The position numbers and the translations under genes are program-made. Shown one piece after another: positions 29,376-57,614 of a stretch of DNA of 64,000 bases (position 1 is its first letter; each line of letters starts with the position of its first letter). The DNA is taken from NCBI GenBank assembly GCA_021229015.1, contig CM037777.1, positions 67,756,411 to 67,820,410 of the forward strand, in the 5' to 3' direction. The stretch is from Solen grandis (lineage: Eukaryota; Mollusca; Bivalvia; Adapedonta; Solenidae). Under the pieces are notes generated by a model. It saw only the letters and a program-made list of their open reading frames with translations, did no database searches and was not told where the DNA came from.

Positions 29376-31486
29376 AACTAGAAGTCGTTTGTTTAAGATA
29401 CAAACGAAGCGGCTTTCCGTTTGCTTATTTCAAAGGTATTGAATATATAAGTTAATACAAAAAAATGGAATAATGATGCATAATAATGTATGATTTAATG
29501 CGGAAATCATTTTTATCATAAATATATACTTATGTTCAAAAAAAAAAAAAAAAAAAAAAAACAGGAACATTTTAAGATGATAATACTTTCCTCAAGAAAT
29601 TTTTTCTCACGTTATTCAATCGATTTTAAAAGTTTTTATTTTTTATTTAATATCTATTTCTTCGTAAGTATATGACTTAACAAATATGCATTGCAATTTG
29701 ATCCACATAATTGAAATTGTAAGAAACAACAAAAATATTTTGAAATCAATGACTTTTAACCTTTAAATTGATTGAGATTTACATTTGCAAAGATAGATGG
29801 AAACAAGGGCAGAGGTGTAAGCAAAATCGTGAAAATAATTTCTTATTTCTATGTAATTAACGTTATTTACGTCTAGAAACTTTCAACAACTCATTTGCTT
29901 TATATATTTGCTTATTTTTACAGGTTTAGAAAAAGAAACCATAAAAACATTTAGAAAACATAAAAAATCGATAGGTAGATATACATGTATTTGTCATTTT
30001 CTTCAGGTTTGCGGAAAACCGTAATAGTAAATGCAATAAGTTTTCCGTATAGGTTTTCTGGCTCTAGTATAACTATACTAATTCATCGTAAATGCGACTC
30101 ATTTACTCAAAAACGTATCACAATTCACTATTCAACGCAGGCACTCTTTCCTGCAAAAGGACAGTCGGATCTTGCTCAACCAACCCAATGACCGCTTTCA
30201 TTTCTTTCTTCAAATTAATAGATTTTCATGATTTAGCCCTTTTACGAAAAACATGAATAAGTTTTGATAACGTAATCACTTGGATTTTTCTGGACTTTTT
30301 GCGCATGTTAAGGTACGGCAATATTTCTTATTTAAAGTTAATATATCCAATCTAATGATCTTTTTAATATATCACAAATCAATGTTGTCATAAACAAGTG
30401 ACACAACATAAATTTCTTAAGGTATGCTTAAGATTGGCATTAATACTCATGACGCTGGAGCGCGAATACAAATTGAAATGAATGATTTTTATATTTCAAC
30501 GACGACAAAGTCAATTGACTAAAAATATCTTTTTTTGCAATGACATATTCATTCTAACGTTCTATTAATCCAGAAAAAAAAAATCTTCGACAATGCGAAC
30601 AGGTTTGTTTTCACATTTTCAAGTAGGCATTCCATCAAACATGAATAACTGCCATGTTTGATGACGTAATCACTTGAAATTTTCAAGACCTTATGAACGT
30701 ACTAAGTTTCGAAAAATTTTAAAATTTTAAGTTCATTGGTCTAATTGGCGATTTTATATGATTTTTTAAAAATAATTCTTGCTTTAGTATGCATGACGTC
30801 AGAACCACGTGACAAAACAAACATTTCTTGCAGTATGCATCATTTCAATTTTAACTCTATCAATTCTAAAGATTTAATTAAGATTGACTCAAAATTCATG
30901 ATACCAGAACGAGAGAAATCTTTAAAAAGAAATGCATTTTGTCTTTTTGATGACGTCATAACCACGTGACTTAAGAGAAAATTATTAAAAAAAAAATAGA
31001 ATGTAAACTTCTATGCCGATATGCTGCCCAATTGTCATGCTTCTAACACATCAGGGGGCTTTGTAACATTTAAACTTAATTTTTGGACCATAGTTCGAAA
31101 CTCGGTATTGCCATGAAATCTTTTTTTTTTTTCGAATTTGGAAATTTGAATTTCAAGGTGCACATCTACATCCTAAAATACATCTTCTGTAAAAATATCA
31201 AGATAATCGGACCAAAATTGGAGGCTCTAGAGCGCAAACAAACTTTTGAAGCTGACGTCAAATCTGACGTCAGATGACGCCAATGATGATTGAAAATGAT
31301 CGAATGTATAAAAAGATAACAAAATCCCGATATATATCTTCTTTGAAAAATTGAAGAAGATCCGCCTGTTATGAGATTGAGTGATTTTAATTTAGTAAAT
31401 TGAACTTTAGCATTTTGATTAAAGTAAAGCGTCAATAATAAGCTTTGGAATAGTCTAGTGTGCTGTCTTACGGACAACTCCTGTTG
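29376..31486 (+). mobile_element. Family G element: array-type head, E-like monomers, family B-like 3' end
   Basis: Head AACTAGA + stem TCGTTTGT/ACAAACGA (29385-29407), then GCGGCTTTCCGTTTGC, the same layout as the heads at 35838 and onward. Inside are diverged ~450-bp monomers with TGACGTCA clusters (about 30480-31290). An A tract lies at 29540-29561. At 31448-31486 is GAATAGTCTAG + TGTGCTGTC..GACA..CTCCTG, similar to the family B 3' end. Head and tail may belong to different elements. Contains the left copy of the 1.7-kb duplication. Confidence 0.6.
29618..31318 (+). repeat. Segmental duplication, left copy (~1.70 kb)
   Basis: Aligned from AATCGATTTTAAAAG to AATGTATAAAAAGATA with 33581-35274, with many substitutions and small indels but collinear throughout. 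The short ORFs in it (29985, 30745, 31083) are not preserved in the other copy, so it is not coding. Confidence 0.88.
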
Positions 31487-35837: not shown

Positions 35838-37483
35838 AACTAGATTTCATTCGTTGATACGAATGATAGGACTTTCTGCTAAAATTGAAAAATATTAAGA
35901 TTAAAAAAAATAATTAAATTCTCTACCCTTTACTCTTTTATTTTTTTTCGTATGGACTTCTTTTAGCTTTGATGTCACATGACGTCATAGGGTGCTGAAA
36001 ATTCTTTTGTTCAAAAGCGCATACTCTACTGTCGTAACTCTGAAATTTTCATTATTCTGAACAACTGGCATCATGTCAAAATCATTACCCTTAAAATGAA
36101 AATTAAGAAGTATGCCTATGACGTCACATGACGTCATATGACGTCACGACTCAAAATATATATAGAAATTCTGCAGAACTGCAAACTGTGTAAGTATCAA
36201 CTTTCTATCTTATCCTGAAGCTCTTTCATCCTAAAATGAAATTTTCGGTCCTATGTTCGAATCTTACTTCAGCCACAGAACTTCGGTCTTTCGGAAATTC
36301 GGTTGGCTGGCAGGATATGCACACCTTAGTTTCAAGATGTACCATCTGTGAAAATTTGAAGTAAATCCGACCATAAATGACGGCTGTAGAGCGCAAACAC
36401 CATTTTTCACTATTTTTAGCTGTGGCGTCATGTGACGTCAAAGGGTGCTGAAGATGCTTTTATTCAAAAGCGCATACTTTACTGTCATAACTCTGAAATT
36501 TTCATTATTCTGAACAACTGGCATCATGTCGAAATCATTACCCTAAAATGAAAATTAAGAAGTATGCCTATGACGTCACATGACGTCATATGACGTCACG
36601 ACTGAAAATATATGTTGAAATTCTGCAGAACTGCAAACTGTGTAAGTTTCAACTTTCTATCTCATCCTGAAGCTCTTTTATCCTATAATGAAATTTTCGG
36701 TCCTATGTTCGAATCTTATTTCAGCCACAGAACTTCGGTCTTTCGGAATTTTGGTTAGCTGACAGGATATGCACACCTTTGATTCAAAATGTACCATCTG
36801 TGAAAATTTGAAGAAAATCCGACCATAAATGACGGCTGTAGAGCGCGAACACCATTTTTAACTATTTTTAGCTGTGACATCATGTGACGTCATAGGGTGC
36901 TGAAGATGCTTTTGTTCAAAAACGCATACTTTACTGTCATATCTCTGAAATTTTCATTACTCTGAACAACTGGCATCATGTCGAAATCATTGCCCGAAAA
37001 TGAAAATTTAGAAGTATGCCTATGAAGTCACATGACGTCATATGACGTCACCACTCAAAATATATGTAGAAATTCTGCAGAACTGCAAACTGTGTAAGTT
37101 TCAACTTTCTATCTCATCCTGAAGCTCTTTAATCCTTAAATGAAATTTTCGGTCCTATGTTCGAATCTTATTTCAGCCAAAGAACTTCGGTCTTTCGGAA
37201 TTTAGGTTAACTGACAGGATATGCACACCTTTGATTCAAGATGTACCATCTGTGAAAATTTGAAGAAAATCCGACCATAAATGACGGCTGTAGAGCGCGA
37301 ACACCATTTTTCACTATTTTTAGCTGTGACGTCATGTGACGTCATAGGGTGCTGAAAATCATTGAAATCAAAATTTCCTCACGTGACTAATACGCCATAA
37401 AAATTTCATCGTCCTAGGAGTATTGCAAAATAGAAAAATAAGCGTTTAGTTAGGAAGAAGAAAAGAATAATAATAATAATAAT
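35838..37483 (+). mobile_element. Array element E1 (head + 3 monomers + 3' module)
   Basis: Head AACTAGATT, stem TCATTCGT-tgat-ACGAATGA, then TAGGACTTTCTGC. Three ~452-bp monomers (GTTCGAATC blocks near 36258, 36711, 37162). The 3' module runs from about 37371 (TTTCCTCACGTGACTAATA, CATCGTCCTAGG, AAGCGTTTAGTTAGGAAGAA) into (TAA)n. Almost the same as the element at 49363. No protein-coding capacity is credible. Confidence 0.9.
36119..36146. promoter_or_regulatory. Example of helically phased triple TGACGTCA cluster
   Basis: TGACGTCA, the palindromic cAMP-response-element/bZIP consensus, occurs at 36119, 36129 and 36139, i.e. every 10 bp. A triple like this followed ~300 bp later by a pair (here near 36423-36440) is repeated in most of the ~36 standard monomers of the array. 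Binding is not shown by sequence alone. Confidence 0.6.
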
Positions 37484-39071
37484 AACTAGATGTCATTCGT
37501 GAAAACGAATGATAGGACTTTCTGCAAGCTGTGTTAATGCAAAAAGCAGGAGATAGAAGTTTCATGTAATGACTCACCGCTGGTAGTATTTCATGTTCAT
37601 GCTGAACAATTGACATTATATTCCGAAATTAGTGCAAATGATAAGAACTAAGTATTAGTCTGTGACGTCACATGACGTCATATGATATCATAACTCTAAA
37701 CATATGTAGAAATTCTGCAGAACTGCAAACTGTTTAAGTTTCAACTTTCTATCTCATCCTGAAGCTCTCTAATCCTAAAATGAAATTTTCGGTCCTATGT
37801 TCGAATCTTATTTCAGCCACAGAACTTCGGTCTTTCGGAATTTCGATTAGCTGACAGGATATACACACCCAACTTTCAAGATGTACCATCTGTGAAAATT
37901 TGAAGAAAATCCGACCATAAATAGCGGCTGTAGAGCGTGAACACCATTTTCCACTATATTTAGCTCTGACGTCACATGACGTCATAGTGTGCTAAAGATG
38001 CTTTTGTTCAAAACGGCATATTTTACTGTCATAACTCTGACATTTTCGTTATTCTGAACAACTGGCATCATGTCAAAATCATTGCCCAAAAATGAAAATT
38101 AAGAAGTATGCTTATGACGTCACAAGACGTCATATGACGTCAAGACTCAAGATATATGTAGAAATTCTGCAGAACTGTAAACTGTGTAAGTTTCAACTTT
38201 CTATCTCATCCTGAAGCTCTTTAATCCTAAAATGAAATTATCGGTCCTATGTTCGAATCTTATTTCAGCCACAGAACTTCGGTCTTTGGGAATTTCGGTT
38301 AGTTGACAGGATATGCACACCGGAGTTTCAAAATGTACCATCTGTGAAAATTTGAAGAAAATCCGACCATAAATGACGGCTGTAGAGCGTAAAAACCATT
38401 TTTCACTATTTTTTGCTGTGACGTCATGTGACGTCAAAGGGTGCTGAAGATGCTTTTGTTCAAAAGCGCATACTTTGCTTTCATAACTTTGAAATTTTCA
38501 TTATCTGAACAACTGGCATCATGTCGAAATCATTGCCCAAAAATGAAAATTAAGAAGTATGCTTATGACGTCACATGACTTCATATGACGTCACGACTCA
38601 AAATTTTTGTAGAAATTCTGCAGAACTGCAAACTGTGTAAGTTTCAACTTTCCATCTCATCCTGAAGCTCTTTTATCCTAAAATGAAATTTTCGGTCCTA
38701 TGTTCGAATCTTATTTCAGCCACAGAACTTCGGTCTTTCGGAATTTCGGTTAGCTGACAGGATATGCACACCTTTGATTCAAGATGTACCATCTGTAAAA
38801 ATTTGAAGAAAATCCGACCATAAATGACGGCTGTAGAGCGCGAACACCATTTTTCACTATTTTTAGCTGTGACGTCATGTGACGTCATAGGGTGCTGAAA
38901 ATCATTGAAATCAAAATTTCCTCACGTGACTAATAAGCCATAAAAATTTCATCGTCCTAGGACTATTGCAACATATAAAAATAAGCGTTTAGTTAGGAAG
39001 AAGAAAAGAATAATAATAATAATAAAAAACCCAATAGGACTTTCTGCTTTAAAGCAGAAAGTCCTAATAAT
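37484..39071 (+). mobile_element. Array element E2, complete with its own terminal hairpin
   Basis: Head AACTAGATG, stem TCATTCGT-gaaa-ACGAATGA, TAGGACTTTCTGC; three monomers; 3' module from ~38908; (TAA)n; then AACCCAA and the terminal hairpin at 39035-39066. It is the one E element in the window whose head, module and hairpin directly follow one another, so it best defines the complete unit. Confidence 0.9.
39035..39066. repeat. Terminal hairpin of E2: perfect 32-bp palindrome
   Basis: Starts TAGGACTTTCTGCTTT and reads the same on the other strand. Its left arm repeats the 13-nt motif that ends the element's 5' head; its right arm is the inverse of it. Followed by ATAATAACTAG, the next element's start. 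Confidence 0.97.
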
Positions 39072-41433
39072 AACTAGATGTCATTCGTGAAAACGAATGA
39101 TAGGACTTTCTGCAAGCTGTGTTAATGCAAAAAGCAGGAGATAGAAGTTTCATGTAATGACTCACCTCTGGTAGTATTTCATGTTCATGCTGAACAATTG
39201 ACATTATATTCCGAAATCAGTGCAAATGATAAGAACTAAGTATTAGTCTGTGACGTAACATGATGTCATATGACGTAAGGACATGACTGCAAACTTGATT
39301 TCTAGTTTAAAGGTCCTATGTTCGAATCTTACTTCAGCCACAATACTTCGGTTTTTAGGAATTAAGGTTAGCTGACAAAATATTCACACCTTAGTTGCTG
39401 AATGTACCATCTGTAAAAATTTGAAGAAAATCTTATCATAAATGGCGGCTGTAGAGCGCGAATACCATTTTTCACTATTTTCAGCTCTGACGTCAGGTGA
39501 CGTCATAGGGTGCTGAAAATACTGTTGCTCAAAAGCGCATACTTTACTGCAATAACTCTGAAATTTTCATTATTCTGAACAACTGGCATCATGTCGAAAT
39601 CATTGCCCCAAATTAAAATTAAGTGGTATGCTTATGACGTCCTATGACGTCACGATTCTAAATATTTGTAGAAATGCTGCAGAACTGCAAACTGTGTAAG
39701 TTTCAACTTTCTATCTCATCCTGAAGTTCTTTAATCCTAAAATGAAATTTTCGGTCCTATGTTCGAGTCTTTTTTTCAGCAACAGAACTTCGGTTTTTCG
39801 GAATTTCGGTTAGCTGACACGATATGAACACCTTAGTTTCAAGATGTACAATCTGTAAAAATTTGAAGAAAATCCGACCATAAATGGCGGCTGTAGAGCG
39901 TTAACACCATTTTTCACTATTTTTAGCTCATACGTCACATGACGTCATAGGGTGCTGAAGATGCTTTTGTTCAAAAGCGCATACTTTGTTGTCATAACTC
40001 TGAAATTTTCATTATTCTGAACAACTGGCATTATGTCGAAATCATTGCTCTAAAATGAAAATTAAGAAGTATGCTTATGACGTCACATGACGACATTTGA
40101 CGTCACGACTCTAAATATATGTAGAAATTCTGTCGCACTACAAACTGTGTAAGTTTCAACTTTCTGTCTCATTCTGAAGCGCTTTAATCCTAAAATGAAA
40201 TTTTCGGTCCTATGTTCGAATCTTATTTCAGCCACAGAACTTCGGTCTTTCGGAATTTCGGTTAGCTGACAGGATATGCACACCTTAGTTTCAAAATGTA
40301 CCATCTGTGAAAATTTGAAGAAAATCCGACCATAAATGACGGCTGTAGAGCGCAAACACCATTTTTCACTATTTTTAGCTGTGACGTCATGTGACGTCAT
40401 AGGGTGCTGAAGATGCTTTTGTTCAAAAGCGCATACGTTAGTTTCATAACTCTGAAACTTTCATTATTCTGAACAACTGGCATCATGTCGAAATCATTGC
40501 CCTAAAATGAAAATTAAGAAGTATGCTTATGACGTCACATGACGTCATATGACGTTCCGACTCCAAAAATTTGTAGAAATTTTGCAGAACTGCAAACTGT
40601 GTAAGTTTCAACTTTCTATCTCATCCTGAAGCTCTTTAATCCTAAAATGAAATTTTCGGTCCTATGTTCGAATCTTATTTCAGCCACAGAACTTCGGTCT
40701 TTCGGAATTTCGGTTAGCTGACAGGATATGCACACCTTTGTTTCAAGATGTACCATCTGTGAAAATTTGAAGAAAATCCGACCATAAATGATGGCTGTAG
40801 AGCGCGAACACCATTTTTCACTATTTTTAGCTGTGACGTCATGTGACGTCATAGGGTGCTCAAGATGCTTTTGTTCAAAAGCGTATACTTTACTTTCATA
40901 ACTCTGAAATTTTCATTATTCTGAACAACTGGCATCATGTCAAAATCATTGCCCTAAAATGAAAATTAAGAAGTATGCTTATGACGTCACATGACGTCAT
41001 ATGACGTTCTGACTGAAAATATTTGTAGAAATTCTGCAGAACTGCAAACTGTGTAAGTTTCAACTTTCTATCTCATCCTGAAGCTCTTTAATCCTAAAAT
41101 GAAATTTTCGGTCCTATGTTCGAATCTTATTTCAGCCACAGAACTTCGGTCTTTCGGAATTTCGGTTAGCTGACAGGATATGCACACCTTTGATTCAAGA
41201 TGTACCATCTGTGAAAATTTGAGGAAAATCCGACCATAAATGACGGCTGTAGAGCGCGAACACCATTTTTCACTATTTTTAGCTGTGACGTCATGTGACG
41301 TCATAGGGTGCTGAAAATCATTGAAATCAAAATTTCCTCACGTGACTAATAAGCCATAAAAATTTCATCGTCCTAGGTCCATTGCAACATAGTAAAATAA
41401 GCGTTTAGTTAGGAAGAAGAAAAGAATAATAAT
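39072..41433 (+). mobile_element. Array element E3 (5 monomers)
   Basis: Head with GAAA loop, a divergent first monomer (about 39240-39500), then four standard monomers (ORF-like blocks at 40083, 40616, 41068). The 3' module is at 41326-41425, and (TAA)n is interrupted by the family F element. It resembles the elements at 51839 and 54792, which have one more monomer. Confidence 0.88.
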
Positions 41434-42149
41434 AACTAGAATCGCAATCGCGATATCATCGGTTTTCGCAAAAGCAATTCCATTCAGTTCACGAGTCGCA
41501 TGTTTCAAAAAACATATTTCTTCGTTCAATGTCTTGTTGAATACTGTTAACAGTGATCTTTCAAACACTTTTGTCGCAATGTTTAAGAAGACTTTTTACC
41601 CAAAAGATTTTTGAGTATTACCTGTCAGTTATGTAGTCGCGATATCATCGGTTTTCATGAAAGCAATTCCATTCAGTTCACGAGTCGCATGATTCGAAAA
41701 ACATTTCTTAGTTCAATTGCTTGTTGATACTGTTAACAGTGATCTTTGAAACATTTTTGTCGCAATGTTTAAGCAGACTTTTTACCAAGAAGAACACTTT
41801 TAAGTATTACCTGTCTGTTATGTAGTCGCAAACTTGAAAACCTTTTTTACGGACTTCGGGTACTGCAACGTTATATGTGTGTGTTGCTTTATGATGGCGA
41901 CATACGACAATTGTACTCGATAAACAAGAATTGCAAACGACAAACAACAGTTTAAAATAACACGCGACAATGTATTATGCAACTCAACACTATTACAGAC
42001 TAATGTTACATTGAATTACTATCATTTTCATAAAATATCGCTTTGATTTTTAGTGTTGTTTCAAATTGATGTCATCAAGAAACAGAATGTAAAAAAATTG
42101 CATAAAGTCAGACTTCAATTATTTTAGTTATAAAGAGTGATTTCAAGCC

Positions 42150-42168
42150 AAGCGCCCCCTAGCGGCAA
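42150..42168. promoter_or_regulatory. CTCF-like motif 1
   Basis: AAGCGCCCCCTAGCGGCAA resembles the inverse of the animal CTCF core (TAGCGCCCCCTGGTGGCCA). It is a GC-rich island in very AT-rich surroundings and recurs in each F unit. Match by eye only. Confidence 0.5.
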
Positions 42169-42996
42169 AACGAGAAACAAAATTGGGTAAATATTTTCTA
42201 TTAGGTATCTAGCAATGCAGCAAATGGTTCAATCAAATATACAAGTCGCACTAGTCAAACATTCTATTCCTTATATATCAAAATTTGAAGTATAAAACCT
42301 GATTTACAATTGTTCTAAAGAGGATCAATATTTTGGCTGCCGTAAAATGACGAAATCAAGTTCATTCTTCAAAAACTAAACATCACTTGAAAGGGCTCTT
42401 CAAGAACTAAAACTTTTGTTCATACACTTTCAATAAAATATTTTTTGTTTTTGAGCTATTTTGAGCCGAATAAAAACACAGTAATCGTAATATGACCTTG
42501 ACCTTTGCAATTTCATTTTAACTTCTTAATTGTGGGGTCATTTCAAACATAACAATACATAACTTGTGAAAATATCATGAAGAATGAACTAAAAATAAAG
42601 TCAGGAGCGACAAAAACCATGTTTTTGAAATTTTGATTATTCCTAAAATTTAGTGAAGTTTGACCGTTTCTAGAGGACAAACCATGCATTTATTAAGTTC
42701 GCCACCCCATATATTTTGTGCGTATATGTCTTGTAAATAATTTGCAGCAAACAGAATTCTTCTATCTGATCTCTAACAAAAATGGATAGGTTTTTCGTAG
42801 ACCTACCCTCATCTGCACAGTTTTTTTGCGAGGTTCGAACTTTCAACCTTCCTTTAGTAGCTCAAAAAGTTTTAGCCACTCATACCTGGAAACTATCATA
42901 TTTTATTAGAGTATCAACAAGGAACACAATGCAACAAACCGCATTTGGATCAGACTTCAACTTTTTGAGTTATAAGTAGAAGAGTGTTTTTAAGCT

Positions 42997-43015
42997 AAGC
43001 GCCCCCTAGCGGCAA
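42997..43015. promoter_or_regulatory. CTCF-like motif 2
   Basis: AAGCGCCCCCTAGCGGCAA, 847 bp after motif 1 and in the same orientation. Confidence 0.5.
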
Positions 43016-43839
43016 AATGAAAAACAAAATTGATTAAAATTTTACCATTAGGTACCTAGCAATGCAGCAAATAGTTCAATCAAGTACGCAAGTCGCACTA
43101 GTCGAACATTCTATTTCTTATATATCACAATTTGAAGCATAAAAACTGATTTACAATTATTCCAAAAAAGGATCAAACTTTGGACTGCCGTAAAATGACC
43201 AAATCAAGTCCGATCTTCAAAAACTAAACATCACTGGAAAGAGCTCTTGAATAACTAAAACTTTTGTTCATAAACTCTCAAAGAAATATTTTTAGTTTTG
43301 GAGCTATTTGGGGCCGAATAAAAACACAATAATCGTAATATGACCTTGACCTTTTCATTTATGTTTTAACTTTTAATTGTGATCCCCTTTCAGACATAAC
43401 AATACATAACTTGTGAAAATATCATGAAGAATTAACAAAAAATAAAGTCAGAAGCGATAAAAAACATGTTTTTGAACCTTTAACTTTTCTAAAATTTAGT
43501 GAAGTTTGACCGTTTCCAGAGGACCTACCATACATTTCTTAAATTCGCCACCCCATATATTTTGTGCGTATATGTCTTGCAAATCATTTGCAGCAAACAG
43601 AATTCATCTATCTGATCTCTAACAAAAATGGATAGGTTTTTCGTAGACCTACCCTCATTTGCACAGTTTTTTGCGAGGTTCGAACTTTCAACCTTCTGTA
43701 GCTCAAATACTTTCAGCGACACGTACCCTCGAAACCTATCATATTTTATTTGGCTATCAACAAGGAACAGAATGCAAAAAACCGCATTTGAATCGGACCT
43801 CAAATAACTGAGTTATTAGCCATTAATAAATTTCATGCA

Positions 43840-43858
43840 AAACGCCCCCTGGCGGGAA
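43840..43858. promoter_or_regulatory. CTCF-like motif 3
   Basis: AAACGCCCCCTGGCGGGAA, 843 bp after motif 2, same orientation. Diverged flanks but kept core. Confidence 0.5.
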
Positions 43859-44028
43859 AAGTAAGACATAAATGAAAATTTTCTCAACGTTAGGATCATT
43901 TTCAAATACGTGGTAATAACTGATTAAAATTTCATACATGTGACTTTTTTCTGTCATGGTGATATGCCGTTCACAAAAAAAGGTTAGAAAAATAATAATA
44001 AAAAAAAAAAAAAACAGAAGAAGAACAA

Positions 44029-44060
44029 TAGGTTTTCGCACTGCGAGGTGCGAAAACCTA
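44029..44060. repeat. Terminal hairpin of family F element
   Basis: TAGGTTTTCGCA (44029-44040) pairs perfectly with TGCGAAAACCTA (44049-44060) around CTGCGAGG. Followed by (TAA)n and the next head. Confidence 0.97.
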
Positions 44061-44077
44061 ATAATAATAATAATAAT

Positions 44078-44835
44078 AACTAGATGTCATTCGTTTAAAC
44101 GAATGATAGGACTTTCTGCAACATCTGCTTTATATAGTATATATAGAAGATGACATAATAGATAATCTGTCCAAATTGCAACTTTCTATCTCCTCTATTT
44201 CTATATAAAATAGCACAAATAGAACACATTCTGTGAATTTTAATAAAAGTCCGCCCATATCTTGCACATGTAGTTTACATACAACATTTATACTATGTCA
44301 TATGACATGAAAGAAAAATGAAACAGTGTTCAAATGTAAGTTTCTAACTTTCATCACACATAGAATTTCATCACTCCAGCTCAGTTGTAACCTTGTTTAA
44401 TTTTAGCCTCATTAGGAAGAAGTATTGAATATTTGTATAGTGCTATATCCTTTCGACACCTGTAACGTAGTTAAACGTATTTAGCGATTTTGGCGTGTTT
44501 GGGCTTCCGTAGTTTTGCCATAAATTCCTGGAATTTCGAACTATGGTGATATTTTGAAAGGTAACATCCCAGCCTACAAACTGATGCAATATGAATATCG
44601 TTAGCATAACAATGCAGTTTTTAGATGGTCTAAAATGTGGGGCTACGTGTGAATTTTTTAAGGCTTGCAAACTGCTCGCTAGCTACATAGTGTTGCAAAT
44701 ACGGATTTTTGTCTTGTGCCGTTGTACATGTATTAACTGCAATGCTTATTTTGGAAACAGTCAACATTCGACAAAAAACAACAAAACAACAAAAAAAAAG
44801 AACAAAATCAAGATATAGCCCATTAATTGCAATTT

Positions 44836-44866
<31 letters not shown>

Positions 44867-45400
44867 GTCGTTGCGCAAGTATTTAAGCCTGGTGACCCCT
44901 GCGCGTGACCTTTTCCATATTTTTATGATGCATGATTATGAAATATCTTATTTTCCATGTAACTTTCTTATATGAAGTCCAATTTCAATAAACTTGGTAC
45001 CGTTAGAAAGCTCTTAAAACATGCTACATTTTATACGCATAATGTATAAACTTATCTTCAGTCGTTTCTGAGATATTGACTGTTAAACCTCAAGAAAACA
45101 GCATATTATCAGCAAAATTAGCTTCATTTCGTTTAGTTTTTTTGCTTATAAATTGGTATTGCGTAAACCAATTTTAATAAACTAAATATCTTTGGAAACG
45201 TCAATTATTCAGCTATAATTCTTATTCATACATATATTTACAAAAATCGATATTTATTGAGATATGGCTACATATATGCAGTAGGGGTGAAATCAAAATT
45301 TCCTCACGTGCCTAATAAGCCATAAAAATTTCATCGTCCTAGGACTATTGCAACATATTAAAATAAGCGTTTAGTTAGGAAGAAGAAAAGAATAATAGTA
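44078..45400 (+). mobile_element. Array element E4, short type without TGACGTCA monomers
   Basis: Head with TTAA loop (TCATTCGT-ttaa-ACGAATGA), TAGGACTTTCTGC, then a ~1.2-kb body unrelated to the 450-bp monomer, with an A-rich run (44774-44799) and a T tract (44838-44864). 3' module from ~45292. Almost identical to 57615-58957. Confidence 0.88.
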
Positions 45401-46788
45401 AGAAACAAATGACGTCACGTGACGTCATATGACGTCACGACTCAAAATATTTGTAGAAATTCTGCAGAACTGCAAACTGTGTAAGTTTCTACTTTCTATC
45501 TCATCCTGAAGCTCTTTAATCCTAAAATGAAATTTTCGGTCCTATGTTCGAATCTTATTTCAGCCACAGAACTTCGGTCTTTCGGAATTTCGGTTAGCTG
45601 ACAGGATATGCACACCTTTGATTCAAGATGTACCATCTGTGAAAATTTGAAGAAAATCCGACCATAAATGACGGCTGTAGAGCGTAAACACCATTTTTCA
45701 CTATTTTTTGCTGTGACGTCATGTGACGTCATAGGGTGCTGAAGATGCTTTTGTTCAAAAGCGCATACTTTGCTTTCATAACTCTGAAATTTTCATTATT
45801 CTGAACAACTGGCATCATGTCGAAATCATTGCCCAAAAATGAAAATTAAGAAGTATGCTTATGACGTCACATGACTTCATATGACGTCACGACTCAAAAT
45901 TTTTGTAGAAATTCTGCAGAACTGCAAACTGTGTAAGTTTCAACTTTCCATCTCATCCTGAAGCTCTTTTATCCTAAAATGAAATTTTCGGTCCTATGTT
46001 CGAATCTTATTTCAGCCACAGAACTTCGGTCTTTCGGAATTTCGGTTAGCTGACAGGATATGCACACCTTTGATTAAAGATGTACCATCTTTGAAAATTT
46101 GAAGAAAATCCGACCATAAATGACGGCTGTAGAGCGCGAACACCTTTTTTCACTATTTTTAGCTGTGACGTCACATGACGTCATAGGGTGCTGAAGATGC
46201 TTTTGTTCAAAAGCGCATACTTTCCTTTCATAACTCTGAAATTTTCATTATTCTGAACAACTGGCATCATGTCGAAATCATTGCCCTAAAATGAAAATTA
46301 AGAAGTATGCTTATGACGTCACATGACGTCATATGACGTCACGCCTCAAAATATTTGTAGAAATTCTGCAGAACTGCAAACTGTGTAAGTTTCAACTTTC
46401 TATCTCATCCTGAAGCTCTTTTATCCTAAAATGAAATTTTCGGTCCTATGTTCGAATCTTATTTCAGCCACAGAACTTCGGTCTTTCGGAATTTCGGTTA
46501 GCTGACAGGATATGCACACCTTTGATTCAAGATGTACCATCTGTAAAAATTTGAAGAAAATCCGACCATAAATGACGGCTGTAGAGCGCGAACACCATTT
46601 TTCACTATTTTTAGCTGTGACGTCATGTGACGTCATAGGGTGCTGAAAATCATTGAAATCAAAATTTCCTCACGTGACTAATAAGCCATAAAAATTTCAT
46701 CGTCCTAGGACTATTGCAACATATAAAAATAAGCGTTTAGTTAGGAAGAAGAAAAGAATAATAATAATAATAAACATAACAAACCCAA
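45401..46788 (+). mobile_element. Array element E5, headless (starts with TGACGTCA palindrome)
   Basis: No AACTAGA head. After the (TAA)n of E4 the text goes straight to ATGACGTCACGTGACGTCAT (20-bp palindrome, 45409-45428). Three monomers and the 3' module (~46660-46760), then (TAA)n and the hairpin stack. Confidence 0.8.
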
Positions 46789-46986
46789 TAGGACTTTCTG
46801 CTTTAGGCAGAAAGTCCTAATAAGAAGAAGAAGAAGAAGAATAAACAGTACAAACCCAATAGGACTTTCTGCTTTAGGCAGAAAGTCCTAATAAACATAA
46901 CAAACCCAATAGGACTTTCTGCTTTAGGAGAAACCAAAAACATACAAACCCAATAGGACTTTCTGCCGAAAGGGCAGAAAGTCCTA
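46789..46986. repeat. Stack of four terminal hairpins
   Basis: Hairpins at 46789-46819, 46860-46890, 46910-46934 (right arm lost) and 46954-46986. Each begins TAGGACTTTCTGC, has a short loop (TTTAG or CGAAAGG), and is preceded by (TAA)n- or (GAA)n-like text plus A(T/G)(A)AC(A)AACCCAA. Interpreted as the 3' ends of four elements whose bodies were separated from them by later insertions. Confidence 0.9.
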
Positions 46987-49362
46987 ACTAGATCCGGATT
47001 TGGTATCCGCATAATAGCAACGTACCAAACTTTACAGGTGCAAGATCGAGGAAAAAAGGAAAAGGCTAATATGCAATAAAAACATAAAATTTTCGTATAA
47101 AATTTGCACAGATGTTGTAAAATGTTATTTTAAAGCAACTTGTGAAATTTCATACAAATACGACTTGAAATAACATGGGTGGCGTCTTCAAACCCCGGAC
47201 GGCATCAAGTCCCTCACCGATGAGATCTTGAAGTGAATTTTGAAAATGGATTTAAACATCAATATATATCAATGAAATTTGCACAAATGATGTAAAATGC
47301 CATTACAAAGCTACTGGTGAAATTTTATACCTATACGACCAGTAATAAAGCGGGTGGCGCTATAGAACCCTGGATGGCGCATAATCCTGGATGGCGCATT
47401 TAAGTAGAGTATACTGCACTGTACTATACTATATTGATAAAGAATAGAATTGAAACACCATTAAATTATTCGGCGTAGCTGTATAAAATCGATTTCGATG
47501 TTTATTTTTAGACCAAAATCCCCCCTGCAAATCTGCAGAAGTGGACTCGCCCACTTTAACCTGCTGATCATGTAGTATGCGGAGGAGGTGGAAGTTAACC
47601 CATATATTATAATTAACACATACTTTCCTATCAATTAGGGGGTCTTACTTTATCAATACGGATCTAACCAACAAACATTATGAATCTTACATATACAATA
47701 ACATACCTTTGACCCCTTTTTGTAATAAGTACACTTAAACATGTCAGTGTGTACAGAATGTATATAAATAGACTGCATGATCACTATTTTAAGAATACAT
47801 CTGGGTTCGCGGAAATACAGTCTATTATTAGATTGTAGGAGTTCAGTTTGTTTTCCATTTTACGCCGAATATCTTTTTTTAAAGATATTTCTTGTTAGCT
47901 AGTAATATCAATATGATATTAGTAAAAAGTTTATTTTGCAAATGATATCATGACTAATACATATCTGTAAACTTGAAAATGCTTCAATAAAGGTGAAAGC
48001 GAAAGTAGGATAATTTTTGGAAATTCTTACAATTGGGTTTAAATTCGTATTTTTGATGTAACTTCCTTATACTTTAATCAATTTTAAAACTCTAGGTACC
48101 AAAATAATCGTCTTAAAATTCTCTACATCTCACTTGCTTATTGTTTGCACTTATATCGAATGACTTTTAAGATATTAGCCGTACAAATTTGACAACACGG
48201 CAGAATTGCTGAAATTCTAGATGTTTAAATTCTTATTTTTGATGTAACTTCCTTATACTTGGATCAATTTCAAAACTTTAGGTACCCAAATAATCGTCTC
48301 AATATTCTTTAAATTTCACACGCTTCATGTTTACGAATTTTTTTAATACTTTTTGAGATAGAAGCTCTTAAACCTCCTGAAAAATGAAAAAATCACCAAA
48401 GCGACATGCACGAATTTCGTTTTTTTCCATTACTCCATGAATCTTTGGCCAATCATTGAACTTTTAGCATCAAAAGAACGGCCAAACATTTTTCTACAAA
48501 TAATATTCATCATCATATTTTCAAAAATCAAAAGTTTTCGAGATATAAACTGTTAAACACACTGAGGGTTACCGAATTTTTGTTTTTCCGCCATAACTCA
48601 ACCGATTCAACCCCGATCATCAAAAACTAAATATCATCTGAAAGATCTTTCTAAGCACTACAAATTATATGCATAGTGTCTCGATAGAATAGTTACCGTT
48701 TTTGAGATATTTAAGGCCGTAGAAAAACCCGATAATTGATATATGACCTTGACCTTCGGGATTTTCCGGAAACGGAAGTGACATGGCTCCATAGAATCTT
48801 ATACTGCATCTTCAGACAAAATTTCAAGCAAACCATACAAAAAATAAAGCCTACAGGGATTAAAAACCGTTAAGTTTTAATACGAAAGTTTTAATTGCAT
48901 TATGACGTCATGTGACGTCATATGGCGTTCATCTTTTTAGAATGTAAAGAAGACATAGAGACTAATATTTAGTCCAAATCTCAGCTTTCTAGCTTTTCTG
49001 GAAGTGATTTTATACGCATTTGAAATTTGACGTCATTAGTTCGAATCTTGGATTCGCCATAAAACATTTGCCTTTTCGAATTTGGAAAAACGGACGCCGG
49101 GATGCACAACTAGAGCCTAACATACGCATTTTGTGAAATTTTGATGAAAATCGGTCCATTAATAATGGCTCTGGACAGTTTACAAACTTTTGTAGCATAT
49201 GTCAATTGTGACGTCACATGACGTCAAAAACACATAAAAATCATAGAAATCAAAATTTCCTCACGTGACTAATAAGCCATAAAAATTTCATCGTCCTAGG
49301 ATTATTGCAACATAGAAAAATAAGCGTTTAGTTAGGAAGAAAAAAAGAATAATAATAATAAT
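46986..49362 (+). mobile_element. Array family H element
   Basis: Head AACTAGATC + stem CGGAT-ttggt-ATCCG + CATAATAGC, directly joined to the last hairpin of the stack. The body has a ~180-bp duplicated block (47090-47400, GGGTGGCG), unassigned sequence (47400-48000), blocks like family F (48590-48740, GACCTTGACCTT) and one diverged TGACGTCA monomer (48900-49225), then the shared 3' module (49245-49345). Its terminal hairpin is not in the window. Confidence 0.75.
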
Positions 49363-51015
49363 AACTAGATTTCATTCGTTGATACGAATGATAGGACTTT
49401 CTGCTAAAATTGAAAAATATTAAGATTAATTCCGTTAGAAAGAATATATATTAAATTCTCTACCCTTTACTCTTTTATTTTTTTTTCGTATGGACTTCTT
49501 TTAGCTTTGATGTCACGTGACGTCATAGGGTGCTGAAAATTCTTTTGTTCAAAAGCGCATACTCTACTGTCGTAACTCTGAAATTTTCATTATTCTGAAC
49601 AACTGGCATCATGTCAAAATCATTACCCTTAAAATGAAAATTAAGAAGTATGCCTATGACGTCACATGACGTCATATGACGTCACGACTCAAAATATATG
49701 TAGAAATTCTGCAGAACTGCAAACTGTGTAAGTATCAACTTTCTATCTTATCCTGAAGCTCTTTCATCCTAAAATGAAATTTTCGGTCCTATGTTCGAAT
49801 CTTACTTCAGCCACAGAACTTCGGTCTTTCGGAATTTCGGTTGGCTGACAGGATATGCACACCTTAGTTTCAAGATGTACCATCTGTGAAAATTTGAAGT
49901 AAATCCGACCATAAATGACGGCTGTAGAGCGCAAACACCATTTTTTCACTATTTTTAGCTGTGGCGTCATGTGACGTCAAAGGGTGCTGAAGATGCTTTT
50001 ATTCAAAAGCGCATACATTACTGTCATAACTCTGAAATTTTCATTATTCTAAACTGGCATCATGTCGAAATCATTACCCTAAAATGAAAATTAAGAAGTA
50101 TGCCTATGACGTCACATGACGTCATATGACGTTACGACTGAAAATATATGTTGAAATTCTGCAGAACTGCAAACTGTGTAAGTTTCAACTTTCTATCTCA
50201 TCCTGAAGCTCTTTTATCCTATAATGAAATTTTCGGTCCTATGTTCGAATCTTATTTCAGCCACAGAACTTCGGTCTTTCGGAATTTTGGTTAGCTGACA
50301 GGATATGCACACCTTTCATTCAAAATGTACCATCTGTGAAAATTTGAAGAAAATCCGACCATAAATGACGGCTGTAGAGCGCGAACACCATTTTTCACTA
50401 TTTTTAGCTGTGACATCATGTGACGTCATAGGGTGCTGAAGATGCTTTTGTTCAAAAACGCATACTTTACTGTCATATCTCTGAAATTTTCATTACTCTG
50501 AACAACTGGCATCATGTCGAAATCATTGCCCGAAAATGAAAATTTAGAAGTATGCCTATGAAGTCACATGACGTCATATGACGTCACCACTCAAAATATA
50601 TGTAGAAATTCTGCAGAACTGCAAACTGTGTAAGTTTCAACTTTCTATCTCATCCTGAAGCTCTTTAATCCTTAAATGAAATTTTCGGTCCTATGTTCGA
50701 ATCTTATTTCAGCCACAGAACTTCGGTCTTTCGGAATTTAGGTTAGCTGACAAGATATGCACACCTTTGATTCAAGATGTACCATCTGTGAAAATTTGAA
50801 GAAAATCCGACGATAAATGACGGCTGTAGAGCGCGAACACCATTTTTCACTATTTTTAGCTGTGACGTCATATGACGTCATAGGGTGCTGAAAATCATTG
50901 AAATCAAAATTTCCTCACGTGACTAATACGCCATAAAAATTTCATCGTCCTAGGACTATTGCAACATATAAAAATAAGCGTTTAGTTAGGAAGAAGAAAA
51001 GAATAATAATAATAA
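49363..51015 (+). mobile_element. Array element E6, near copy of E1
   Basis: Head with TGAT loop and the same body as 35838-37483, including the atypical TTTTCGTATGGACTTC leader and three monomers; small indels separate them. 3' module at 50905-51005. Confidence 0.9.
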
Positions 51016-51838
51016 AAAATGACGTCACGTGACGTCATATGACGTTTATTTTCACATAATTGTTAAGACTCCCAGAGACCTACTAACTGACAAAATTTCA
51101 ACTTTCTATCTCAAATAGGACAGTTTTTATAAGCATTTAAAAATTGACGTCCTTGGTTCGAATCTTTGATCCGCCATAGATGCTTGGACTTTTCGAATTT
51201 TGAAAAACCGGACACCGGTATACACAATAAGAACGTAATATACACATTCTGTGAAAATTTGATGAAAATCGGCCCATTAATAATGGCTCTGGACCGTGTA
51301 CAAAATTTTTAAATTTTCATTGCCCTTCGACAATTCAATATATAGAAATACTCTTGTTAATATTAGAAATACATTATCATATAATGACGTCACGTGACGT
51401 CATATGACATTTATTTTCACAAAATGTTTAAGACTCTTAGGGACCTATATACTGACCAAATATCACTTTTCTATCTCAAAAAGGACCGATTTTATAAGCA
51501 TTTAAAAATTTACGACCTTGGTTCGAATCTTGGATTCGCTATAGAACCATGGACTTTTCGAATTTTGAAAAACGGACACCGGGATGCACAACTAGAACTT
51601 AATATACACAATCTGTGAAAATTTGATGAAAATCGGTTCACAAACAATTGCTGTAGACCGCGTACAAACTTTTGTAGCATATTTCAAATGTGACGTCATA
51701 TGACGTCATAGGCATATGAAAATCATAGAAATCAAAATTTCCTGACGTGGCTAATAAGTCATAGAAATTTCATCGTCCTAGGAGTATTGCAACATAGAAA
51801 AATAAGCGTTTAGTTAGGAAGAAAAAAAGAATAATAAT
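51016..51838 (+). mobile_element. Array element E7, headless, diverged monomers
   Basis: Begins after (TAA)n with the same ATGACGTCACGTGACGTCAT palindrome as 45409. Two diverged monomers (GGTTCGAATCTT near 51156 and 51518; ACGGACACCGG). 3' module at 51735-51832. Confidence 0.8.
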
Positions 51839-54642
51839 AACTAGATGTCATTCGTGAAAACGAATGATAGGACTTTCTGCAAGCTGTGTTAATGCAAAAA
51901 GCAGGAGATAGAAGTTTCATGTAATGACTCACCTCTGGTAGTATTTCATGTTCATGCTGAACAATTGACATTATATTCCGAAATCAGTGCAAATGATAAG
52001 AACTAAGTATTAGTCTGTGACGTAACATGATGTCATATGACGTAAGGACATGACTGCAAACTTGATTTCTAGTTTAAAGGTCCTATGTTCGAATCTTACT
52101 TCAGCCACAATACTTCGGTTTTTAGGAATTAAGGTTAGCTGACAAAATATTCACACCTTAGTTGCAAAATGTACCATCTGTAAAAATTTGAAGAAAATCT
52201 TATCATAAATGACGGCTGTAGAGCGCGAATACCATTTTTCACTATTTTCAGCTTTGACGTCAGGTGACGTCATAGGGTGCTGAAAATACTGTTGCTCAAA
52301 AGCGCATACTTTACTGTAATAACTCTGAAATTTTCATTATTCTGAACAACTGGCATCATGTCGAAATCATTGCCCCAAATTAAAATTAAGTGGTATTCAT
52401 ATGACATCCTATGACGTCACGATTCAAAATATTTGTAGAAATGCTGCAGAACTGCAAACTGTGTAAGTTTCAACTTTCTATCTCATCCTGAAGTTCTTTA
52501 ATCCTAAAATGAAATTTTCGGTCCTATGTTCGAGTCTTTTTTTCAGCAACAGAACTTCGGTTTTTTGGAATTTCGGTTAACTGACAGGATATGAACACCT
52601 TAGTTTCAAGATGTACAATCTGTAAAAAATTTGAAGAAAATCTGACCATAAATGGCGGCTGTAGAGCGTTAAAACCATTTTTCACTATTTTTAGCTCAGA
52701 CGTCACATGACGTCATAGGGTGCTGAAAATGCTTTTGTTCAAAAGTACATACTTTGTTGTCATAACTCTGAAATTTTCATTATTCTGAACAACTGGCATC
52801 ATGTCGAAATAATTGCTCTAAAATGAAAATTACGAAGTATGCTTATGACATCACATGACGTCATATGACCTCATAACGCAAAACATATGTAGAAATTCTG
52901 CAGAACTGCAAACTGTGTAAGTTTCAACTTTCTATCTCATCCTGAAGCTCTTTAATCCAAAAATGAAATTTTCGGTCCTATGTTCGAATCTTATTTCAGC
53001 CACAGAACTTCGGTCTTTCTGAATTTCGGTTAGCTGACATGATATGCACACCTTAGTTTCAAGATGTACAATCTGTGAAAATTTGAAGAAAATCCGACCA
53101 TAAATGGTGGCTGTAGAGCGTGAACACCATTTTTCATTATTTTTAGCTCTGACGTCACATGACGTCAAAGGGTGCTGAAAATTCTTTTGTTCAAAAGCGT
53201 ATACTTTACTTTCATAACTCTGAAATTTTCATTATTCTGAACAACTGGCATCATGTCGAAATCATTGCCCTAATATGAAAATTAAGAAGTATACTTATGA
53301 CGTCACATGACGTCCTATGACGTCACGACTCAAAATATATGTAGAAATTCTGTCGCACTACAAACTGTGTAAGTTTCAACTTTCTGTCTCATTCTGAAGC
53401 TCTTTAATCCTAAAATGAAATTTTCGGTCCTATGTTCGAATCTTATTTCAGCCACAGAACTTCGGTCTTTCGGAATTTCGGTTAGCTGACAGGATATGCA
53501 CACCTTAGTTTCAAGATGTACCATCTGTGAAAATTTGAAGAAAATCCGACCATAAATGACGGCTGTAGAGCGCAAACACCATTTTTCACTATTTTTAGCT
53601 GTGACGTCATGTGACGTCATAGGGTGCTGAAGATGCTTTTGTTCAAAAGCGCATACGTTAGTTTCATAACTCTTAAGTTTTCATTATTCTGAACAACTGG
53701 CATCATGTCGAAATCATTGCCCTAATATGAAAATTAAGAAGTATGCTTATGACGTCACATGACGTCATATGACGTTCCGACTCCAAAATTTTGTAGAAAT
53801 ATAGCAGAACTGCAAACTGTGTAAGTTTAAACTTTCTATCTCATCCTGAAGCTCTTTAATCCTAAAATGAAATTTTCGGTCCTATGTTCGAATCTTATTT
53901 CAGCCACAGAACTTCGGTCTTTCGGAATTTCGGTTAGTGACAGGATATGCACACCTTTGATTCAAGATGTACCATCTGTGAAAATTTGAAGAAAATCCGA
54001 CCATAAATGACGGCTGTAGAGCGCGAACACCATTTTTCACTATTTTTAGCTGTGACGTCATGTGACGTCATAGGGTGCTGAAGATGCTTTTGTTCAAAAG
54101 CGCATACTTTACTTTCATAACTCTGAAATTTTCATTATTCTGAACAACTGGCATCATGTCAAAATCATTGCCCTAAAATGAAAATTAAGAAGTATGCTTA
54201 TGACGTCACATGACGTCATATGACGTTCTGACTGAAAATATTTGTAGAAATTCTGCAGAACTGCAAACTGTGTAAGTTTCAACTTTCTATCTCATCCTGA
54301 AGCTCTTTAATCCTAAAATGAAATTTTCGGTCCTATGTTCGAATCTTATTTCAGCCACAGAACTTCGGTCTTTCGGAATTTCGGTTAGCTGACAGGATAT
54401 GCACACCTTTGATTCAAGATGTACCATCTGTGAAAATTTGAAGAAAATCCGACCATAAATGACGGCTGTAGAGCGCGAACACCATTTTTCACTATTTTTA
54501 GCTGTGACGTCATGTGACGTCATAGGGTGCTGAAAATCATTGAAATCAAAATTTCCTCACGTGACTAATAAGCCATAAAAATTTCATCGTCCTAGGTCCA
54601 TTGCAACATATTAAAATAAGCGTTTAGTTAGGAAGAAGAAAA

Positions 54643-54679
<37 letters not shown>

Positions 54680-54693
54680 CAGTACAAACCCAA
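51839..54693 (+). mobile_element. Array element E8 (6 monomers)
   Basis: Head with GAAA loop, divergent first monomer, five standard monomers, 3' module 54542-54640, then (TAA)12-like tract. Repeated almost exactly 2952 bp further on (54792). One monomer (about 53820-54060) has a small deletion that breaks its ORF. Confidence 0.9.
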
Positions 54694-54792
54694 TAGGACT
54701 TTCTGCTTTAGGCAGAAAGTCCTAATAATAAGAAGAAGAAGAATAAACAGTACAAACCCAATAGGACTTTCTGCTTTAGGCAGAAAGTCCTA
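54694..54792. repeat. Stack of two terminal hairpins
   Basis: 54694-54724 and 54762-54792, both TAGGACTTTCTGC-TTTAG-GCAGAAAGTCCTA, separated by ATAATAAGAAGAAGAAG and AAACAGTACAAACCCAA. The second is joined directly to the next AACTAGATG head. Confidence 0.95.
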
Positions 54793-57614
54793 ACTAGATG
54801 TCATTCGTGAAAACGAATGATAGGACTTTCTGCAAGCTGTGTTAATGCAAAAAGCAGGAGATAGAAGTTTCATGTAATGACTCACCTCTGGTAGTATTTC
54901 ATGTTCATGCTGAACAATTGACATTATATTCCGAAATCAGTGCAAATGATAAGAACTAAGTATTAGTCTGTGACGTAACATGATGTCATATGACGTAAGG
55001 ACATGACTGCAAACTTGATTTCTAGTTTAAAGGTCCTATGTTCGAATCTTACTTCAGCCACAATACTTCGGTTTTTAGGAATTAAGGTTAGCTGACAAAA
55101 TATTCACACCTTAGTTGCAAAATGTACCATCTGTAAAAATTTGAAGAAAATCTTATCATAAATGACGGCTGTAGAGCGCGAATACCATTTTTCACTATTT
55201 TCAGCTTTGACGTCAGGTGACGTCATAGGGTGCTGAAAATACTGTTGCTCAAAAGCGCATACTTTACTGTAATAACTCTGAAATTTTCATTATTCTGAAC
55301 AACTGGCATCATGTCGAAATCATTGCCCCAAATTAAAATTAAGTGGTATTCATATGACATCCTATGACGTCACGATTCAAAATATTTGTAGAAATGCTGC
55401 AGAACTGCAAACTGTGTAAGTTTCAACTTTCTATCTCATCCTGAAGTTCTTTAATCCTAAAATGAAATTTTCGGTCCATGTTCGAGTCTTTTTTTCAGCA
55501 ACAGAACTTCGGTTTTTTGGAATTTCGGTTAACTGACAGGATATGAACACCTTAGTTTCAAGATGTACAATCTGTAAAAAATTTGAAGAAAATCTGACCA
55601 TAAATGGCGGCTGTAGAGCGTTAAAACCATTTTTCACTATTTTTAGCTCAGACGTCACATGACGTCATAGGGTGCTGAAAATGCTTTTGTTCAAAAGTAC
55701 ATACTTTGTTGTCATAACTCTGAAATTTTCATTATTCTGAACAACTGGCATCATGTCGAAATAATTGCTCTAAAATGAAAATTACGAAGTATGCTTATGA
55801 CATCACATGACGTCATATGACCTCATAACGCAAAACATATGTAGAAATTTTGCAGAACTGCAAACTGTGTAAGTTTCAACTTTCTATCTCATCCTGAAGC
55901 TCTTTAATCCAAAAATGAAATTTTCGGTCCTATGTTCGAATCTTATTTCAGCCACAGAACTTCGGTCTTTCGGAATTTCGGTTAGCTGACAGGATATGCA
56001 CACCTTAGTTTCAAGATGTACAATCTGTGAAAATTTGAAGAAAATCCGACCATAAATGGTGGCTGTAGAGCGTGAACACCATTTTTCATTATTTTTAGCT
56101 CTGACGTCACATGACGTCAAAGGGTGCTGAAAATTCTTTTGTTCAAAAGCGTATACTTTACTTTCATAACTCTGAAATTTTCATTATTCTGAACAACTGG
56201 CATCATGTCGAAATCATTGCCCTAATATGAAAATTAAGAAGTATACTTATGATGTCACATGACGTCCTATGACGTCACGACTCAAAATATATGTAGAAAT
56301 TCTGTCGCACTACAAACTGTGTAAGTTTCAACTTTCTGTCTCATTCTGAAGCTCTTTAATCCTAAAATGAAATTTTCGGTCCTATGTTCGAATCTTATTT
56401 CAGCCACAGAACTTCGGTCTTTCGGAATTTCGGTTAGCTGACAGGATATGCACACCTTAGTTTCAAGATGTACCATCTGTGAAAATTTGAAGAAAATCCG
56501 ACCATAAATGACGGCTGTAGAGCGCAAACACCATTTTCCACTATTTTTAGCTGTGACGTCATGTGACGTCATAGGGTGCTGAAGATGCTTTTGTTCAAAA
56601 GCGCATACTTTAGTTTCATAACTCTGAAGTTTTCATTATTCTGAACAACTGGCATCATGTCGAAATCATTGCCCTAATATGAAAATTAAGAAGTATGCTT
56701 ATGACGTCACATGACGTCATATGACGTTCCGACTCCAAAATTTTGTAGAAATATAGCAGAACTGCAATCTGTGTAAGTTTCAACTTTCTATATCATCCTG
56801 AAGCTCTTTAATCCTAAAATGAAATTTTCGGTCCTATGTTCGAATCTTATTTCAGCCACAGAACTTCGGTCTTTCGGAATTTCGGTTAGCTGACAGGATA
56901 TGCACACCTTTGATTCAAGATGTACCATCTGTGAATATTTGAAGAAAATCCGACCATAAATGACGGCTGTAGAGCGCGAACACCATTTTTCACTATTTTT
57001 AGCTGTGACGTCATGTGACGTCATAGGGTGCTGAAGATGCTTTTGTTCAAAAGCGCATACTTTACTTTCATAACTCTGAAATTTTCATTATTCTGAACAA
57101 CTGGCATCATGTCAAAATCATTGCCCTAAAATGAAAATTAAGAAGTATGCTTATGACGTCACATGACGTCATATGACGTTCTGACTTAAAATATTTGTAG
57201 AAATTCTGCAGAACTGCAAACTGTGTAAGTTTCAACTTTCTATCTCATCCTGAAGCTCTTTAATCCTAAAATGAAATTTTCGGTCCTATGTTCGAATCTT
57301 ATTTTAGCCACAGAACTTCGGTCTTTCGGAATTTCGGTTAGCTGACAGGATATGCACACCTTTGATTCAAGATGTACCATCTGTGAAAATTTGAAGAAAA
57401 TCCGACCATAAATGACGGCTGTAGAGCGCGAACACCATTTTTCACTATTTTTAGCTGTGACGTCATGTGACGTCATAGGGTGCTGAAAATCATTGAAATC
57501 AAAATTTCCTCACGTGACTAATAAGCCATAAAAATTTCATCGTCCTAGGTCCATTGCAACATATTAAAATAAGCGTTTAGTTAGGAAGAAGAAAAGAATA
57601 ATAATAATAATAAT
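54792..57614 (+). mobile_element. Array element E9, near-identical to E8
   Basis: Same head, same six monomers and 3' module as 51839-54640, with only a handful of differences. A recent duplication. Confidence 0.9.

Follow-up and report, generated by a model that had tools for sequence, protein, structure and literature searches.

A probable self-nested array of non-autonomous Helentron-type transposons in the genome of the bivalve Solen grandis

The DNA analysed here, referred to below as the window, is a stretch of 64,000 nt from Solen grandis (GenBank assembly GCA_021229015.1, contig CM037777.1, positions 67,756,411 to 67,820,410). Coordinates are those of the forward strand of the window, and the elements are read on its minus strand. 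Its right-hand part is occupied by repeated elements bounded by short terminal motifs and hairpins, in which four families (E, F, G and H) were recognised (Table 1). A first-pass annotation, made from the sequence alone, had described an array of transposons starting at 35838, the insertions of which could be counted by their stacked terminal hairpins. The array seems to begin further to the left, with a G-family 3′ end at 29378. The structure of the termini and of the junctions between elements suggests that it is probably a nested array formed by four families of non-autonomous rolling-circle transposons of the Helentron type (HINEs), every element being on the minus strand and E the most numerous.

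Two kinds of terminal sequence recur through the array. One is the motif AACTAGA, previously taken for the start, or head, of each element. It is present at all five positions where a head had been placed in the interval 35838–46986 (35838, 37484, 39072, 41434 and 44078), and with 28 matches window-wide it lies well above the 9.89 expected from shuffled sequences. The other is a palindrome, previously taken for the terminal hairpin. When up to two mismatches were allowed, the 13-bp sequence TAGGACTTTCTGC found in the E palindromes gave 22 matches, every one of them exact, against 1.10 expected. Six intact E palindromes are found in the window, starting at 39035, 46789, 46860, 46954, 54694 and 54762, together with a single F palindrome. 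A further E-type hairpin at 46910 is half decayed, with one arm only; the hairpin coordinates were thus confirmed, but the stack at 46789–46986 is made up of three intact hairpins and one half, not four. Three of the palindromes were folded and lay far below shuffled sequence (z scores of -6.7 to -8.4).

The direction in which the elements had been read was not upheld. On the minus strand, each intact E hairpin reads TAGGACTTTCTGC, a loop, GCAGAAAGTCCTA and TTGGGTTT, and in the uninterrupted E cases (E2 and the palindromes at 46789 and 54694) it is followed by a (TTA)n tract, a tail and repeats of approximately 452 bp. The heads, on the same strand, run from a subterminal repeat through a stem-loop to TCTAG. 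Read on this strand, the parts follow one another as published for HINEs, from inverted repeat and microsatellite through the repeats to a 3′ stem-loop, and the earlier orientation was therefore rejected: the terminal hairpins are most likely 5′ ends and the heads 3′ ends, the two having been exchanged. Eight 5′ ends were recognised in the window (seven E, one of them half decayed, and one F). For the 3′ ends, a scan of both strands returned 31 candidate rows (20 plus, 11 minus), from which we accepted 12 on the basis of stem-loop, subterminal repeat and flank; all 12 lie on one strand (minus).

Excerpts of the HINE literature (PMC7492417, PMC4067079) give the layout as a subterminal inverted repeat (subTIR), an inverted repeat, a microsatellite, tandem repeats, a second subTIR and a 3′ palindrome. 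The subTIR, expected at 12–15 bp, is represented in E by the 13-bp TAGGACTTTCTGC at the 5′ ends and by GCAGAAAGTCCTA at nine of nine 3′ ends, and in F by a 13-bp 5′ arm, 10 bp of which recur on the 3′ side. In both families the arm of the 5′ palindrome matches the family's own 3′ subterminal repeat. For G and H the window holds 3′ ends only, and a search of it for their 5′ palindromes, using the arms of the 3′ ends (TAGCAACGTACC for H), found none. An inverted repeat adjoins the 5′ subTIR at F's single 5′ end and, intact, at six of the seven E 5′ ends, half of it being lost at 46910. The microsatellite and tandem-repeat core take the form of TTA- or TTC-rich tracts and units of about 452 bp in E, and of short TTA and two-copy repeats in F. 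A stem-loop near the 3′ end was folded for four of the 12 3′ ends (z scores: E2 -5.6, G -5.0, H -3.8 and F -1.8, the last weak), and the stem in E ends 7 nt from the terminus. The flank following TCTAG is TTA at 11 of the 12 3′ ends and TTT (TTTAT) at that of G; insertion between A and T or between T and T fits equally well, and a target duplication would be invisible inside a TTA tract. We consider it likely, from the order and sequence of these parts, that the elements are non-autonomous HINEs, and the structure of their ends points to an enzyme of the Helentron type as what moves them.

Two other identities were considered. Canonical Helitrons (Helitron1) start with TC and end in CTRR, have a hairpin some 11 nt before the 3′ terminus and insert between A and T. 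The CTAG terminus and an A-T site would fit, but E starts with TTAGG or TAGG rather than TC, and this candidate was rejected. Replitrons were dropped when a literature search returned passing mentions and nothing to test.

The case for nesting is carried by the junctions. From 35840 onwards, the 11 E, F and H 3′ ends (35.8–60.3 kb) all have the same orientation and all abut TTA. Nine of them abut TAATAA (plus strand), and those of H and b4 directly adjoin the terminal bases of an E 5′ palindrome; TAA tracts of at least three units make up only 243 of 28300 bases. Six of the 11 (E2, F, a2, b3, c2 and b5) directly follow the tract of an E-type tail, and two (E3 and c1) follow TAA units beside the 5′ palindromes of E2 and F, respectively. 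The tract preceding the 3′ end of a1 is presumed to be that of the G element. The body of F is single and enclosed by its own two ends, as previously proposed, and the stretch common to b3 and b4 spans from the 3′ end to (TTA)n at 99.5% identity. Because of these junctions, self-nesting, with new copies repeatedly entering the (TTA)n of older ones, appears well supported. They likewise agree with the first-pass annotation in its claim of same-orientation insertion into a (TAA)n tract between the body and the hairpin of another copy, and support the piling up of hairpins at the right edge. The uniform orientation would follow from recognition of the target on a single strand. Under nesting, the 5′ end of a1 would have been displaced to the stack at 46.8–47.0 kb.

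Table 1. Features of the array. For the G, a1, E2, E3, F, c1, H, a2, b3, b4, c2 and b5 rows, the lower coordinate is the position of the accepted 3′ end.
Feature	Coordinates	Strand	Description
G-family 3′ end	29378..29424	-	Subterminal repeat, stem-loop, TCTAG; outermost element seen
E element a1	35840..37485	-	3′ end, 452-bp repeats, tail, (TTA)n, then E2; no adjoining 5′ end
E element E2	37486..39066	-	Both ends; 5′ palindrome 39035-39066
E element E3 (b subtype)	39074..41435	-	3′ end, body, tail, (TTA)n, then F
F element	41436..44060	-	Both ends; F 5′ palindrome 44029-44060
E element c1, 3′ half	44080..45408	-	1.2-kb c-specific segment, internal tail and TAA tract
'Headless E' of the first-pass annotation	45409..46819	-	Repeats, tail, (TTA)n, 5′ palindrome 46789-46819; joined to c1
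Stacked E 5′ end 2	46860..46890	-	CAGTACAAACCC type (plus strand), as in b3's own 5′ end
Stacked E 5′ end 3	46910..46941	-	Single arm, decayed
Stacked E 5′ end 4	46954..46986	-	CATACAAACCC type (plus strand); adjoined by H 3′ end
H element	46988..49364	-	H-type 3′ end, E-type 5′-side module 48899-49364
E element a2	49365..51840	-	98.9% to a1 until internal tract; then second-repeat-type module, tail, (TTA)n
E element b3	51841..54724	-	Both ends; 5′ palindrome 54694-54724
Second E 5′ end beside that of b3	54762..54792	-	Adjoined by b4's 3′ end
E element b4	54794..57616	-	99.5% to b3; (TTA)n, then c2; no 5′ end in window
E element c2	57617..60334	-	3′ half 98.5% to c1; right half second repeat type; (TTA)n, then b5
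E element b5	60335..64000	-	Runs off the window

Several observations weigh against a nested array of HINEs. No Rep, helicase or endonuclease match to Pfam was obtained for the 15 stop-to-stop frames of at least 110 aa in the whole window, and the longest frames are only 108 aa in G, 95 in F, 71 in H and 101 in the c body. The Pfam run covered these 15 frames and the 108-aa G frame and gave no match within the array; its matches all lie left of 29 kb and were to a Mutator transposase, weakly to a reverse transcriptase, and to a B-box protein, the frame of which gave one further sub-threshold match. Scans of viral contigs, prokaryote genome contigs and phages found no copies elsewhere, which is unsurprising for an element of a eukaryote. 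Between 35838 and 46986, E 5′ and 3′ ends do not balance (five, one half decayed, versus four) unless a headless unit at 45401 is added. The prefix of the 5′ end at 54762 is of the b type, though nesting assigns this end to a2, which is either a disagreement or carries no information.

The inner member of a nested pair, expected in the first-pass annotation to be the younger, is also not always the less diverged. Divergence was taken from the nearest copy within the window, with difference counts derived from identity percentages: 1.10% for a1/a2 (18/1638), 0.46% for b3/b4 (13/2822), 1.74% for E3/b3 (41/2361) and 1.48% for c1/c2 (20/1352). The inner element is the more diverged for E3 in a1 (1.74% vs 1.10%, p = 0.11) and for c2 in b4 (1.48% vs 0.46%, p = 0.001), and the less diverged for b3 in a2 (0.46% vs 1.10%, p = 0.023) and for c1 in E3 (1.48% vs 1.74%, p = 0.59). 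Nearest-copy divergence is an upper bound on insertion age only and therefore dates no insertion; with two of the four pairs each way, these values neither prove nor refute nesting. E2 and b5 have no close relative in the window, E2 being 92.0–94.7% identical to the other seven elements compared.

How far the hairpins count insertions depends on the unit at 45401, which had been included as a headless E to give five starts for five hairpins; the balance holds if it is counted and is otherwise four to five. It does not behave as a start. It has no terminal feature, its junction consisting of a tail, a TAA tract, an A-rich spacer and ATGACGTCACGTGACGTCAT from 45409, and the same junction recurs at 51019, 58964 and 63545, inside a2, c2 and b5. 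Given this recurrence, and the 98.5% identity of c1 and c2 through the junction (1352 aligned positions), it looks like an inherited internal feature. Beyond it, the right half of c1 is only 47–75% identical to that of c2 per 100-column block until the tail, and in c1 the second repeat type gives way to the first inside a shared palindromic motif just past the junction; exchange with another E element is thus the probable source of the right half of c1, which may be what remains of such an element. A strict bracket model, in which each hairpin stands for one insertion and the headless unit is an E that lost its 3′ end, would explain the five-to-five tally, and the repeat-type switch and dissimilar right half look as if the remainder of an E had been fused by a repeat-mediated deletion. 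We nevertheless regard this model as unlikely given the recurrent junction and its conservation between c1 and c2. Hairpin prefixes, a weak test, also lean against counting the headless unit. Without it, nesting assigns the 5′ end at 46860 to E3, a 98.3% relative of b3, the own 5′ end of which carries the same CAGTACAAACCC (plus strand) prefix; with it, E3 receives the half-decayed hairpin of the CATAACA type, in disagreement with the CAGTACA type of its close relative b3. From 46986 to 54792, two E 3′ ends (H uncounted) stand against two E 5′ ends without headless units, and three against two with them, which is no refutation since elements are open at the right edge.

Two further explanations would account for parts of the array in other ways, and to each we give a real chance, though one short of even. 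Rolling-circle read-through, or elements with multiple 5′ ends, could have produced the hairpin stacks and the b3/b4 pair, a circle or chimera with several 5′ ends having been inserted as one piece; stacked hairpins would then not represent separate insertions. The 3′ end of b4 abuts the 5′ end at 54762 exactly, the near-identity of b3 and b4 would fit, and a GAA-containing spacer with CAGTACAAACCC is common to both stacks (46860 and 54762). There are also precedents in Fusarium Helitrons that combine a single 3′ end with several short 5′ ends, for which an excerpt of PMC5148889 offers self-insertion as the explanation, and in plant tandem arrays with multiple 5′ ends and a single 3′ end (Xiong et al. 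2016, as recounted in an excerpt of PMC12628747). However, H also abuts a 5′ end exactly and has a different 3′ end, so no b dimer is needed, and the prefix at 46860 agrees with the nested closure of E3. Alternatively, unequal exchange may have duplicated a block a-b-b-c or b-c, in place of a separate insertion for every element, F, E2, H and b3 being later gains or losses. The order of subtypes is a b b c followed by a b b c b, and the first four labels equal the next four in just 12 of 756 distinct label orders (1.6%). The divergences of a1/a2, c1/c2 and E3/b3 do not differ significantly from one another, and c2 lies in the tract of b4 yet c1/c2 are more diverged than b3/b4, as if b and c had been copied together and b3 had arisen later from b4. 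On the other hand, the flanks are unlike (the G region for a1, H for a2), b3 does not have its partner in E2, and c1 and c2 differ in the type of their right halves. The differing flanks and c right halves led us to reject block duplication as the sole cause.

The 5′-side module of H at 48899–49364 is at best 82% identical to E repeat units (466 columns). Of 12 E-type tails, 10 match the tail of this module at 94.1–97.5% identity and the other two at 91.5% and 92.4%. Judged by these identities, H is a hybrid of an E-type 5′-side module and a non-E 3′ end, as would be expected if replication had started at an old E 5′ end and stopped at another 3′ end, or if recombination had occurred within the repeat.

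Under the nested-array reading, which we favour, the following sequence of events is proposed. New copies would insert strand-specifically into TTA. As E carries (TTA)n just inside its 5′ end, later copies would enter this tract, or the exact 5′ boundary, in the same orientation, as at 11 of 11 junctions. Each insertion would leave the older copy detached from its 5′ end, and the displaced 5′ ends would accumulate on the high-coordinate side. Replication initiated at an older 5′ end and stopping at the first 3′ end reached could then yield hybrids and elements with two 5′ ends, with which H and the 54762/54694 pair are compatible. Repeat-to-repeat exchange, and perhaps block duplication, would have changed internal modules and copy numbers, and the number of 5′ ends is therefore a rough rather than an exact count of insertions.

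This suggests, tentatively and at less than even odds in our view, that the HINE microsatellite acts as a built-in landing pad: each copy would be the preferred strand-specific target of the next, such that single insertions grow into nests and older copies are stripped of their 5′ ends, which pass to younger bodies; hybrids like H would form when replication starts at an old 5′ end and stops at a new 3′ end. The literature searched contained no statement of such a role. To go by the title of a 2010 report by Coates, a lepidopteran Helitron-like family reportedly disrupts (GAAA)n microsatellites; insertion into microsatellites as such would thus already be known. If the proposal is true, the array offers a readable case of non-coding rolling-circle transposons building composite, satellite-like arrays, and gives the microsatellite within these elements a role that can be tested. 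It would also carry a caution, in that such terminal hairpins, when stacked, represent 5′ ends and do not allow insertions to be counted exactly.

The remainder of the window contains other repeats. The G region includes a 1.7-kb direct repeat (29618–31318 and 33581–35274, 88.5% identical) around approximately 2.3 kb of other sequence. Further left, a 316-aa open frame with a B-box zinc finger lies at 25086–26036, for which one protein search returned no hit at E 1e-10. Two direct copies of a repeat of about 495 bp (17232–17726 and 20579–21071, 97.4% identical) lie on either side of a GC-rich stretch that carries Mutator-like transposase frames (PF20700, 18417–19884). For an element of the Mutator kind, flanks in direct instead of inverted orientation are unusual, and a nearby scaffold gap of 100 N (17030–17129) may matter here. 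Satellite-like arrays with units of 157–168 bp, near the size reported for Helentron-borne oyster repeats, occupy 1–1069, 3254–3709, 3972–4514, 5471–6020, 8503–9208, 9694–10182 and 11828–13154.

Parts of the array resemble several described systems. The elements end in TCTAG, and Helitron-like elements of Crassostrea gigas share a CTAG 3′ end with a palindrome upstream and, in part, subTIRs (257/751) and a 5′ inverted repeat; in the excerpt of PMC7992393, however, those elements start with TC and only one has a microsatellite, whereas E starts with TTAGG or TAGG. The Helitron2-type FoHeli elements of Fusarium oxysporum (PMC5148889) are similar in their terminal hairpins, asymmetric inverted repeats, self-insertion and several 5′ ends with one 3′ end, but autonomous members are known there, and the portion of that paper drawn on here mentions neither an internal microsatellite nor a satellite-like core. 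DINE-1 and the Helentrons, as far as described in the relevant part of PMC4067079, are close in layout, with 13-bp subTIRs, a 5′ inverted repeat, a microsatellite, a 3′ stem-loop and clustering, although the 3′ subTIR lies about 27 nt from the end here and 38–60 nt in mite families. Compared with oyster elements, the units here are longer (452 bp versus a typical 160–180 bp in the section cited from PMC8268682), and compared with Cg_HINE of C. gigas (Vojvoda Zeljko et al. 2020, PMC7492417, in excerpt) the microsatellite is TTA rather than mostly of four bases and self-nesting is dense. Cg_HINE nevertheless shares with the Solen grandis elements a 5′ subTIR with a nearby inverted repeat, a microsatellite, a tandem-repeat core, a 3′ subTIR with a palindrome, and T-rich targets.

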